From the NCBI GenBank assembly GCA_938083085.1, contig CALLKX010000014.1:186001-250000 (forward strand): DNA of 64,000 nt, given 5' to 3'. The notes beneath the pieces were generated by a model, which saw only the letters and a program-made list of their open reading frames with translations, did no database searches and was not told the origin of the DNA. Source of the stretch: an uncultured bacterium. GTDB taxonomy: Bacteria > Planctomycetota > UBA1135 > GCA-002686595. Position numbers and translations under genes: made by a program. This document shows, piece by piece, positions 1 through 42,228 of the stretch (positions are counted from its first letter, which is position 1; every line of letters begins with the position of its first letter).

Positions 1-266
1 CCGAGATCCTAGAGCTCGAGCTCCAGGTCCTGACCTGCCAGTCGTTCATGGAGCAGCAGGCTGCTGCCGGGAAGGAGCTGGCCGAGGCGCTCGCTCGCTC
101 GGAAGCGGAGGGCTTCACAGCCGGGATCAACCCGCGCTCCCGCGAGGTCCTGCTCGAAGGCCTCCGGGCCCAGGCCAAGGCCATGCAGTCGATGGAACCC
201 AAGGACAAAGACAAGGGTAAGGCGAAGGGCACCGACCGCCGTCAGGGCCGCCGCAAGAGCCGGTGA
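1..266 (+). CDS. 3' end of an unknown gene
   Basis: The reading frame is open from base 3 to the stop at 264-266, so this is the C-terminal part of a longer protein whose start lies before the window. About 88 residues are visible. They are Ala/Glu-rich and probably helical, and they end in a basic Lys/Arg-rich tail that could bind nucleic acid or simply be disordered. The stop overlaps the GTG start of the recombinase gene by four bases (GTGA), so the two are probably co-transcribed and translationally coupled. I do not recognise the family. Confidence 0.6.
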   Translation, partial: EILELELQVLTCQSFMEQQAAAGKELAEALARSEAEGFTAGINPRSREVLLEGLRAQAKAMQSMEPKDKDKGKAKGTDRRQGRRKSR

Positions 267-1186
267 ACGTCGCCGAACCTCGCCAGCTGGAGTCCGACCT
301 CTGGCCCCGGGTGGACGCCTTCATCGAGCGCATGCGCGTGACGCGCGGCGCCTCGGAGCACACCCTCCGTGCCTACGGGCTCGACCTCGCTGACCTCGTC
401 GGCTTTCTCGCAGGCCGCGGCGTCACCGGGCACGACACCATCACCCCCCGCGCCTTGCGCGGCTGGCTCGGTGACCTTGACGAACGCGGGCTCGCCCGCT
501 CGACAATCCAGCGTCGGCTATCGGCCGCGAGGTCCTTCCTGAAGAGCCTGGTGCACGAGGGTCTACTCGAGGTCAATCCGGCCACCGGCCTCCGCCAGCG
601 ACGGAGCTCACGCCACCTACCTGGCGTGCTCTCCGAGGCGGAGATCGAGGCGCTCCTGGCCGCGCCGGACGCCACCACCGTCGGCGGCCTACGGGACAAG
701 GCAATCCTCGAGCTCATGTACAGCGCCGGCACCCGGGCGGCGGAGACCGTCGGCCTCGACCGCGCGCACCTCGACCTCGGCCGCGGGGTCGGGCGCGTCC
801 TCGGCAAAGGCCGCAAGGAGCGCCTCGTCGCGCTCGGCCGGTTCGCCGTCGAGGCGATCTCCGATCACCTCTCCGACCCCCGGCGCCCCGCCCCCACGAG
901 CGCGGCAGGTGACGCGCTCTTCCTGAACCGCTCCGGCGGCCGCCTCAGCACCCGGAGCCTCGAGACGATCGTCGCCAAGCACGCCCTGCGCGCGGGTATC
1001 ACCCGCCGGGCGACCCCGCACACGCTCCGTCACTGCTTCGCCACCCACCTGCTCGACCGAGGCGCGGACCTCCGCTCCGTGCAAGAGCTCCTGGGCCACG
1101 AACACCTGGCCACGACCCAGATCTACACCCACGTCTCCGTGGCGAGACTCCAGGAGATCTACGAGAAGGCCCACCCCCGGGCCTGA
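263..1186 (+). CDS. xerC: Tyrosine recombinase, XerC/XerD type
   Basis: A 307-residue site-specific tyrosine recombinase, the usual length for XerC/XerD, which resolve chromosome dimers at dif during division. Residues about 15-100 form the N-terminal SAM-like DNA-binding domain and about 115-300 the catalytic domain. The full catalytic set is visible: Arg158, Lys182 in the beta-hairpin, His253 and Arg256 in HTLRH, His279 in LLGHEHL, and the nucleophile Tyr288. The GTG start at 263 overlaps the preceding stop. No att-like repeats, excisionase or phage genes are nearby, so a housekeeping Xer role is more likely than an element integrase. Sequence alone does not separate XerC from XerD. Confidence 0.9.
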
Positions 1187-38858: not shown

Positions 38859-39329
38859 ATGATGCTGGACCAGGACAACCGCCAACCCGAGGAGCCGCCG
38901 CCTGGCGCGGACGAGCTCATGGCCATGGCCTACGCCGATGGAGAGCTGGGCGCCGAGGAGGCCGCAGCCTTCTCCGCGCGCCTCAAGGGCGACCCCGCCC
39001 TCCTGCGTCTCGTGGCCGAGCACCGGGCCCTCGACGCCCTCGCGCGGCAGGTGGGGCACCCCGAGCCGGCCGAGATCGACTGGGCCGTGCTCAAGGCGGA
39101 CCCCACCCATCGCGGGACCACCGTCGCCGGGTGGGTGCTGCTCGCCGCATCCGCGCTCATCGGCGCCGCCATCGCCAGCGGGAGCTTCCTCCTCGACGAC
39201 ACGGTCCCCTTCCCTGCGCGCGCTCTCGCCGGGGCAGGCGTGCTCGGGCTCGCGCTGCTCTTCAGCGCCGTGCTCCGCCGCCGCCTGCGCGCGATCCCCC
39301 TCGACCCCTACCGCCACGTCCAGCGCTGA
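38859..39329 (+). CDS. Putative membrane anti-sigma factor
   Basis: A 156-residue protein. An N-terminal soluble part contains ELMAMAYADGELGAEEAAAF (about 20-39), which resembles the zinc-less anti-sigma (RseA/FecR-like) start, followed by DPALLRLVAEHRALD. Two hydrophobic segments (about 90-110 and 118-140) follow, with a basic end. Position immediately after the ECF gene supports an anti-sigma role; I do not see the usual HxxxCxxC zinc motif. Confidence in function is moderate, in the gene high. Confidence 0.65.
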   Translation: MMLDQDNRQPEEPPPGADELMAMAYADGELGAEEAAAFSARLKGDPALLRLVAEHRALDALARQVGHPEPAEIDWAVLKADPTHRGTTVAGWVLLAASALIGAAIASGSFLLDDTVPFPARALAGAGVLGLALLFSAVLRRRLRAIPLDPYRHVQR

Positions 39330-39330
39330 C

Positions 39331-39660
39331 ATGTTGATCCTGACCACCAACGAAGTCGCCGCGGCAAAGATCACCGAGAGCCTCGGGCTCGTCCGCGGGA
39401 CCACCGTCCGGACGCGCCACTGGGGCCACAACTTGATCGCCGCCTTCAAGGGCCTGGTCGGTGGCGAGGTCCACGAGTACACCAAGGTCATCGCCGAGGC
39501 GCGCGAGGAGGCGCTCGATCGCATGAAGGCCGAGGCCTTCGCCCTCGGCGCGGACGCGGTCGTCGGCTTCCGCTTCGCGACCAGTGAGGTCGCGAAGAAC
39601 TGCGCCGAGGTCGTGGCCTACGGCAGCGCGGTCAAGATCGTCCGCGCGGACCAAGACTGA
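39331..39660 (+). CDS. YbjQ/UPF0145 family protein
   Basis: A 109-residue protein of the YbjQ (UPF0145, putative heavy-metal-binding) family. The TNEVAAAKITESLGLVRGTTV opening, quoted partly as ITESLGLVRGTTV, and AREEALDRMKAEAFALGADAVVGFRF, quoted partly as EAFALGADAVVGFRF, are characteristic. It starts two bases after the putative anti-sigma stop, so lpxB, the sigma factor, the anti-sigma factor and this gene may be one transcript. The biochemical role is unknown. Confidence 0.88.
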   Translation: MLILTTNEVAAAKITESLGLVRGTTVRTRHWGHNLIAAFKGLVGGEVHEYTKVIAEAREEALDRMKAEAFALGADAVVGFRFATSEVAKNCAEVVAYGSAVKIVRADQD

Positions 39661-39690: not shown

Positions 39691-40356
39691 TCAGTATCGA
39701 GCGAGGATCTCGTCCAGGCCCTTCCGCGCGAGCGCGGGGACCTGGCACCCGTCGGCTGGGTACCCCACCGGGATCAACAGGAACGCCCGCTCGTTCGCGG
39801 GGCGATCGAGCACCTTCGCGAGGAAGCCCATGGGGCTGGGCGTGTGCGTCAGGGTCGCGAGGCCGGCCGCGTTCAGCGCGGCGAGCAGCATGCCGCTCGC
39901 GATCCCCACGGACTCCTGGGTGTAGTAGTTCTGCCCCTGACTCCCGTCCTCCTGCAGCTCCCAGGCGTGGCGGAACACGAGGATCAGCGCCGGGGCGATC
40001 TCAAGGAACGGCTTGCTCGCGTCGGTGCCGAAGGGCTGGAGATCCGAGAGCCACTCGTCGTTCATGCGGCCCCCGTAATTCGCCTGCTCCTCCTCCTCGG
40101 CCGCGACGCGGATCTGCGCCTTGAGTCCAGGGTCCGTGACGAGCGCGAAGGTCCACGGCTGCTTGTGGGCGCCCGAGGGCGCCGTCCCGGCGGCGCGGAT
40201 GCAGTCCTCGAGCACCTCCAACGGCACCGGTTCAGGTGAGAAGGCCCGGATCGACCGCCGCTGACCCGCCTCGGCAGCGAAGGCAGCGGCCCGCGCGCGC
40301 ATCTCGTCCTCGCCTTGGCGGCGGAACTCGAGCGGAATGAAGGGGGCTTCGGCCAT
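39691..40356 (-). CDS. Iodotyrosine-deiodinase-like nitroreductase
   Basis: A 221-residue FMN flavoprotein of the nitroreductase superfamily. Unlike ordinary nitroreductases it matches iodotyrosine deiodinase (IYD): RRSIR (33-37) for FMN phosphate, TAPSGAHKQPWTF (58-70), and the active-site lid containing Glu90 and Tyr94 in EEEEQANY and Lys115 exactly 21 residues after the Tyr, the same spacing as the Glu-Tyr-Lys triad that binds the halotyrosine zwitterion in animal IYD. THTPSPMGFL and PVGYPADGCQVP close the match. Reductive dehalogenation of halotyrosine is therefore predicted. It stands alone. Confidence 0.85.
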   Translation of the reverse strand: MAEAPFIPLEFRRQGEDEMRARAAAFAAEAGQRRSIRAFSPEPVPLEVLEDCIRAAGTAPSGAHKQPWTFALVTDPGLKAQIRVAAEEEEQANYGGRMNDEWLSDLQPFGTDASKPFLEIAPALILVFRHAWELQEDGSQGQNYYTQESVGIASGMLLAALNAAGLATLTHTPSPMGFLAKVLDRPANERAFLLIPVGYPADGCQVPALARKGLDEILARY

Positions 40357-40488: not shown

Positions 40489-42228
40489 ATGCTGAGACTG
40501 CTCACTCTCCCCCTCGCTATCGCCCTCTCCGCGCTGGCCCTCGCCGGACTCGCCTCCGCCCAGGGCCCCAAGGCCGACGAACTCCCGGACCTGAAGGGCG
40601 AGATCGACTTCTCGATCCGGTGGCTGAGGAGCACCCAGAACCCGGAGACCGGCGCGTACGGCGGCGACATCGAAGGCACATCGTGGGTGCTCTTTGCCCT
40701 GGCGAAGAGCCCCCGCAAGTACGAGCGGCCGGACGGCCCCTTCGTCTCCAAGGCCATCGACTATCTCCTCTCCCTACAGCGAGAGGACGGCTCCTTCGTG
40801 GACGCGGACCGGCCCGAGGGATCCGCCCTGGCCACAACCCGCGCCGCCGCCGCCGCGCTCTCGGTGCACATCGACGACCGCTCGGTCGCGCCCCTCGGTA
40901 AGGCGCTGAAGTACCTGGCGAGCAACGGCGTCGACGCCCCCTCACTCGAGCAGATCGAGGTCCCCGTGGACGAGGCCGGCGCGACCCGCCTGGCCTTCAA
41001 GCTCCTCGGCGACCGCGCGGGCGAGGGCTCCTGGAGCGGGCCGCGCGGCAAGGTCACCGAGACCGCCCGCGGCATCGAGGCTCTGACACGCATCCGCAGC
41101 CAGGTCGCCCCGCCCGCCGCCGCGCCGAGGAAGCCTTCACCGCTCCCCCGCTACTCCCCGGCGACCCGCGTCGACATCGACGAGGCTGTCCTGCGCGGGG
41201 CACGCTTCCTCCTCGCCGCGGGCGAGGGCGCCCGCTGGGGCGCGCCGGGCCAGCCGGACGCCGGCCTGACCGCCATGGTCACGAGCGCGCTGCTCGAGGT
41301 CCCCGAGCCGCGGCCCGCCGACATCCAGGCTGCCATCGACGACGCCCTCGCCTGGATCCTCACCCACCAGAAGGCGGACGGCTCCATCCACCAGGGGCGC
41401 CTCGCGAACTACGTCACGTCGGCCTCCATCATGGCCCTCGCCGCAGAACCGAAGTACGCCGACGCCGTGCTGCGGGCGCGCAACTGGCTCATCGGACTCC
41501 AGGCCGACGAGGGCGAGGGCTACTCGGAGGGCGACCTCTACTACGGCGGCATCGGCTACGGCGGCGACGAGCGCCCCGACCTCTCGAATCTCCAGATGTC
41601 CCTGGAGGCCCTCGCCGCCTCCGGACTCTCCCGGGACGACGCGGCGTTCCAGCGCGCCCTGAAGTTCCTGGAGCGCTGCCAGAACCGCTCCGAGACCAAC
41701 GACGTCGAATTGACCCGCAAGGGCATCGTCATCAAGTCGGGCAATGACGGCGGCGCGGGCTATGCGCCGGGCGACTCCAAGGCCGGCTTCGTTCAATTGG
41801 CGGACGGCACCGAGGTCCCCCGCTCCTACGGGTCCATGACCTACGCGCTACTGAAGAGCTTCGTGTTCGCCGGCCTGAGCCAGGACGACCCGCGGGTCGA
41901 GGCCTGCTGGAAGTGGCTCTGCGAGAACTACACCCTCGACGTGAACCCGGGCTTCGCGCCCGGCGGCGACCCCGTGGCTCCGTACCAGGGTCTCTACTAC
42001 TACTTCCACACGATGGCGAAGGCCCTCGACGTCTACGGCGTCGACGAGGTCGTCGACGGGGAGAAGGTCGCGCACGATTGGAGAGCCGAGCTCGCGGGCC
42101 GGCTGCTCTCCCTGCAGGACCGCGGCAACGGGAGCTGGACCAACCGCAACGCGCCGCGCTGGTGGGAGGGCAACCCGGTCCTCGCCACGAGCTACGCCCT
42201 CCTGAGCCTGGGCGCCGCGCGCAAGTAG
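40489..42228 (+). CDS. Secreted terpene-cyclase/prenyltransferase-repeat protein
   Basis: A 579-residue protein with a signal peptide (core LPLAIALSALALAGLASAQ). It consists of repeats of the alpha/alpha toroid found in squalene-hopene cyclases and prenyltransferases: IRWLRSTQNPETGAYGG, LQREDGSF, LTHQKADGSIHQG and LQDRGNGSW. The catalytic DxDD of cyclases is not visible, so it is likely a structural or binding protein rather than an enzyme. Planctomycetota often carry exported members of this type. ATG at 40489 begins the signal peptide. Confidence 0.82.
   Translation: MLRLLTLPLAIALSALALAGLASAQGPKADELPDLKGEIDFSIRWLRSTQNPETGAYGGDIEGTSWVLFALAKSPRKYERPDGPFVSKAIDYLLSLQREDGSFVDADRPEGSALATTRAAAAALSVHIDDRSVAPLGKALKYLASNGVDAPSLEQIEVPVDEAGATRLAFKLLGDRAGEGSWSGPRGKVTETARGIEALTRIRSQVAPPAAAPRKPSPLPRYSPATRVDIDEAVLRGARFLLAAGEGARWGAPGQPDAGLTAMVTSALLEVPEPRPADIQAAIDDALAWILTHQKADGSIHQGRLANYVTSASIMALAAEPKYADAVLRARNWLIGLQADEGEGYSEGDLYYGGIGYGGDERPDLSNLQMSLEALAASGLSRDDAAFQRALKFLERCQNRSETNDVELTRKGIVIKSGNDGGAGYAPGDSKAGFVQLADGTEVPRSYGSMTYALLKSFVFAGLSQDDPRVEACWKWLCENYTLDVNPGFAPGGDPVAPYQGLYYYFHTMAKALDVYGVDEVVDGEKVAHDWRAELAGRLLSLQDRGNGSWTNRNAPRWWEGNPVLATSYALLSLGAARK

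Follow-up and report, generated by a model that had tools for sequence, protein, structure and literature searches.

The locus and its active-site features

The window, i.e., the whole 64,000-nucleotide stretch that was analysed, spans positions 186,001-250,000 of contig CALLKX010000014.1 (assembly GCA_938083085.1), which is assigned to the Planctomycetota (UBA1135; GCA-002686595). It carries an iodotyrosine deiodinase (IYD) gene of 221 codons, intact from the ATG at 40356 down to the stop at 39691. The initial annotation had placed the gene at 39691-40356 with triad residues spaced by +4 and +21, both of which are right, and the strand, which it left unstated, is minus. The gene and the segments that form its predicted active site are as follows:

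39691..40356, minus: IYD gene, 221 aa plus stop, ATG start (ORF; best phmmer match among PDB sequences 5ko7, E 2.3e-80; PF00881)
40240..40260, minus: arginine segment of the FMN site, residues 33-39, with R33, R34, R37 and F39 kept in at least 95% of 125 relatives
40159..40182, minus: FMN/substrate loop, residues 59-66 (APSGAHKQ), conserved in the alignment of relatives
40075..40089, minus: lid, E90 to Y94, first and second members of the triad (alignment)
40012..40014, minus: lid, K115, third member of the triad (alignment)
39841..39843, minus: T172, aligned with mouse position 235 and human Thr239; Thr in 139/139 IYD-like rows

We take R33, R34, R37 and F39 to be FMN contacts, the 59-66 loop to contact FMN and substrate, and the T172 column to be the contact with the flavin N5; PDB entry 5yak carries human Thr239 in its title. 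The triad residues E90, Y94 and K115 align with E91, Y95 and K116 of the Haliscomenobacter hydrossis IYD chain (HhIYD) and with E121, Y125 and K146 in the chain numbering of mouse 3tnz. Counting from the range starts of the structure alignments, they correspond to 153/157/178 in the mouse and 157/161/182 in the human enzyme, in agreement with the IYD triad numbering.

Family identity by sequence

A phmmer search against PDB sequences placed HhIYD first, over query residues 5-217, followed by mouse and human IYD (1.5e-57 to 6e-54) and then by the 6pz0 IYD (1e-24), presumably that of Thermotoga neapolitana, while the best non-IYD flavoprotein reached an E-value of 4.2e-14. In local alignments, the query is identical to HhIYD (5ko7, 5ko8, 5krd) at 124/207 positions (59.9%), including the triad and T173 of that enzyme, and to mouse IYD at 101/212 (47.6%). 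The mouse and human enzymes (3tnz, 3gh8, 4ttc) share the triad and the flavin Thr with the query, but animal IYDs carry an N-terminal membrane anchor, whereas the query begins at the conserved domain and lacks one. The 6pz0 enzyme has the same fold but comprises 192 residues and is just 34-35% identical to the query.

The triad is complete in 138/139 IYD-like rows and in none of the eight nitroreductase/BluB outgroup rows, one of which (L133) is gapped at two of the three triad columns. Together with the phmmer E-value to HhIYD, this distribution makes the triad likeness more than chance. An initial count of 125/125 had been made on the best matches and included the window's own copy (L001); the bias was offset by adding 13 weaker strong matches, and seven distant homologues as outgroups. 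The 138/139 count comprises the relatives, these 13 matches, HhIYD and mouse IYD, without L001 and with duplicates retained, the relatives apparently holding some genomes under two locus identifiers (L006/L023 and L007/L024, judged from contig coordinates). One locus that is not an IYD (L002) was left out of the triad count. The Thr239 column is Thr in all 139 rows. The sole exception to the triad, L135 (G333:C132), comes from the same phylum and keeps the Glu and Tyr with a Ser at the Lys column; judging from these residues, it may bind another substrate.

The gene is under purifying selection, with dN/dS values of 0.09-0.11 when compared with four orthologues from the same genus (91-95% identity) and of 0.27 (L008) and 0.25 (L009) at 72-74% identity; the value for L007 (222 aa) came from an out-of-register comparison and was discarded.

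Family models are less specific. The broad Nitroreductase family is the one match that Pfam returns (PF00881, 78 bits vs a cut-off of 23.5), and on that basis the likeness to IYD could be superficial and the product a generic nitroreductase or NAD(P)H:flavin oxidoreductase. We consider this very improbable: the best non-IYD match in the PDB trails animal IYD by some 40 orders of magnitude, the trees described below both split the query from the nitroreductase rows used, and the triad is missing from the outgroup. NCBIfam gave nothing above its cut-offs, its best match being TIGR02476 (BluB, E 6.4e-16), which would make the gene a BluB-type 5,6-dimethylbenzimidazole synthase. However, the score of 58.3 bits lies far below the curated cut-off of 150, and BluB (2isj), which shares the superfamily fold, lacks the triad and forms a separate clade. 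Indeed, L130, a separate BluB-like protein of a same-genus genome, groups with BluB and away from the query in both trees, and the chance that the gene encodes such a synthase is close to nil.

Phylogeny and predicted structure

Two trees were built, both without the 6pz0 IYD, FbiB and NfsB. The quick tree holds 95 IYD-like and eight outgroup rows after removal of rows more than 93% identical (ungapped) and a thinning of the Bacteroidota rows among L041-L101 by roughly two thirds, and the careful tree holds 51 rows, i.e., 43 selected loci together with the query, HhIYD, mouse IYD and five outgroup rows. The outgroups are six planctomycete nitroreductase homologues in the quick tree and three in the careful one, along with two BluB rows per tree. 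The query shares with HhIYD and mouse IYD an 87-row clade in the quick tree (SH-aLRT 99) and a 39-row clade in the careful tree (bootstrap/SH-aLRT 98/99, the bootstrap being not fully settled), and neither tree groups the query with the BluB and nitroreductase rows used. Within the clade, HhIYD falls among Bacteroidota rows, in contrast to the query, which lies on a planctomycete branch; the exact position of mouse IYD among the bacterial rows is not fixed by the trees. Some rows from the same phylum branch outside the clade of the query, HhIYD and mouse IYD, yet on the IYD side and with the triad.

An AlphaFold2 monomer model built from 25 aligned rows has a mean pLDDT of 89.6 and a pTM of 0.86, the lid stretch 91-110 being among its less confident parts (block mean pLDDT 73 and 79). 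The first 25 rows of a Foldseek search with this model are all IYDs, and the best is 5ko8, HhIYD with FMN and iodotyrosine, at a TM-score of 0.93. VIA-align gave Z-scores of 27.2-22.2 for 12 IYD entries, the 6pz0 enzyme having 22.2, against at most 17.9 for the other 38 entries listed, including 17.7 for BluB. The structure alignments pair model residues 5..221 with 68..285 of mouse 3gb5, and 4..221 with 71..289 of human 4ttc. The PF00881 match and the TM-score of 0.93 to FMN-bound IYDs agree on a nitroreductase fold with FMN-site residues, and the protein is predicted from the model to bind FMN.

The initial annotation had called the gene an IYD homologue carrying the halotyrosine-binding triad of animal IYD, and this identification is borne out by the PDB search, the alignment of the triad with HhIYD and mouse IYD, the trees, and the Foldseek and VIA-align searches, whose best matches are all IYDs. 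The likeness to IYD that it saw in the FMN-site and C-terminal segments is also found: the FMN-loop and C-terminal segments of the query match IYDs in the phmmer search and the alignment. It had further proposed a phylogeny as a check, with placement outside the IYD clade as the outcome that would speak against the identification, and both trees put the query inside it.

Distribution

The source genome yields one strong match, which is the window's own gene, and a second, partial match (38%, E 1e-5) within a 563-aa frame. Strong orthologues (E < 1e-40) were tallied by eye from the match table in 33 of the 37 sampled genomes of the same family and in 47 of 61 genomes in all, the window's own being included. 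At the level of the phylum, at least 119 of 392 genomes contain a match at E <= 1e-40, up to seven candidates having been scored per genome, and a scan of species genomes found at least 80 IYD-like loci, with many bacterial groups among the matches listed. By NCBI ranks, the IYD-like rows of the quick tree come from Bacteroidota, Planctomycetota, Myxococcota, Actinomycetota, Balneolota, Rhodothermota, Ignavibacteriota and Acidobacteriota, although most rows are metagenome-assembled genomes, so that single odd phyla could reflect misbinning. L023, which is 91% identical to the query, is from a Planctomycetota bacterium.

The initial annotation thus went too far in presenting a planctomycete IYD as an addition to the few known in bacteria; the gene is a well-supported but unremarkable representative of a family that bacteria were already known to possess. 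A literature search, outside of which most subscription journals lay, found no work joining iodotyrosine deiodinase with Planctomycetes. The hint of novelty in the initial annotation is weak, because structures of bacterial IYDs have been solved, relatives occur in eight bacterial phyla and a 2026 review describes IYD as occurring from mammals to bacteria.

Gene neighbourhood

The IYD gene stands alone in its neighbourhood within the window, between two genes:

39328-39660, convergent with the IYD gene: YbjQ-type gene
40489-42228, plus, divergent from the IYD gene: match to the squalene-hopene-cyclase C-terminal domain and weak match to a TED domain

Beyond the YbjQ-type gene lie LpxB and a sigma-70 factor, and beyond the squalene-hopene-cyclase-like protein lie a sulfatase and an M48 peptidase. 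Beside the sigma-factor gene, a 156-aa ORF (38859-39329, plus) has no Pfam match; judging from its location alone, it may encode an anti-sigma factor. The neighbourhood is in large part common to L022, L023, L025, L029 and L054, of which L023, L029 and L054 are Planctomycetota, and this sharing among near relatives suggests vertical inheritance.

For a broader comparison, ORFs of 90 codons or more that surround IYD in the window and in 80 named loci were clustered and the 40 largest clusters were viewed, distances to IYD being taken for 29 of them with at most 14 rows each. Clusters that overlap IYD antiparallel or in another frame, including one of 38 loci, were set aside. None of the 40 clusters adjoins IYD in more than one phylum, and no operon partner or reductase candidate lies beside the gene in the window, or across phyla in the clusters examined, so that the genomic context is uninformative on the substrate. 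The widely common clusters reflect lineage synteny within Bacteroidota, as with a pair of ORFs that follow IYD downstream in 15 loci each, which we read as FabF- and RNase III-like. In seven Bacteroidota loci (L043, L045, L050, L057, L082, L085 and L086), mostly kin of H. hydrossis, a same-strand ORF of the SDR type, so labelled from a reading of the sequence by eye rather than a family search, ends upstream, no more than some 230 bases short of where the IYD match begins, which suggests a joint transcript with IYD. The upstream neighbour of the query, in contrast, is divergent.

Proposed function

Altogether, the ancestry, the predicted fold, the full triad, the flavin-site Thr and purifying selection are established for the query, and we give a probability of about 0.8 to the reading that the gene product is a soluble, FMN-dependent member of the nitroreductase superfamily, namely an iodotyrosine deiodinase closely related to that of H. 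hydrossis. Its most likely role, by analogy, is the FMN-dependent reductive dehalogenation of free halotyrosines, which can soundly be inferred from some 60% identity to an IYD crystallised with iodotyrosine. Characterised IYDs are homodimers with domain-swapped ends that hold two FMN and close a lid, through the triad, over the halotyrosine, which is dehalogenated in two one-electron steps. The planctomycete protein would likewise form a homodimer with two FMN, in which a free mono- or dihalotyrosine would be gripped at its amino acid part by Glu90, Tyr94 and Lys115, closing the lid; reduced FMN would then remove iodide, bromide or chloride in two one-electron steps to leave tyrosine. The benefit to the cell would likely be tyrosine salvage, or the clearing of halogenated amino acids that are toxic and enter the cell along with debris of halogenated protein.

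The IYD triad recognises the amino acid end of the substrate and not the halogen, and an enzyme of this clade could naturally act on a different zwitterion resembling tyrosine, e.g., nitrotyrosine or a tyrosine with some other ring modification, with dehalogenation as a side activity. Membership of the nitroreductase superfamily (PF00881) would suit such chemistry, the presence of the gene in 33/37 family genomes points to an everyday function, and neither the window context nor the locus clusters examined revealed a neighbour with a link to halogens. However, close relatives have been crystallised with iodotyrosine, according to the titles of entries 5ko8, 3tnz and 4ttc, and the flavin-site Thr, which is said to favour one-electron dehalogenation, is invariant among the IYD-like rows; another principal substrate therefore appears unlikely, while deserving more weight than a generic nitroreductase.

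Within the deiodinase reading, IYD comes close to a core gene in this planctomycete family, with 33/37 sampled genomes carrying it and near relatives keeping its syntenic place. Tentatively, this might reflect a constant physiological flux of halogenated tyrosine, perhaps with chloro- or bromotyrosine of oxidised protein being detoxified as a matter of course, and not rare iodine salvage. The assignment gives a specific functional label to a gene left at the nitroreductase level by Pfam and NCBIfam, and this label extends to many planctomycetes. Work on cultured relatives could explain the retention of a halotyrosine dehalogenase in so many bacteria and reveal its reductase.

Two families that might supply halotyrosine were searched for in the source genome. 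An_peroxidase (PF03098) has no match there, nor in any of the 14 control genomes, so that this negative carries no weight. Two stretches of a single 593-aa frame score above the cut-off for Trp_halogenase (PF04820), but this model also matches five of the 14 controls, including E. coli and archaea, and the frame is therefore read as a related flavoprotein.
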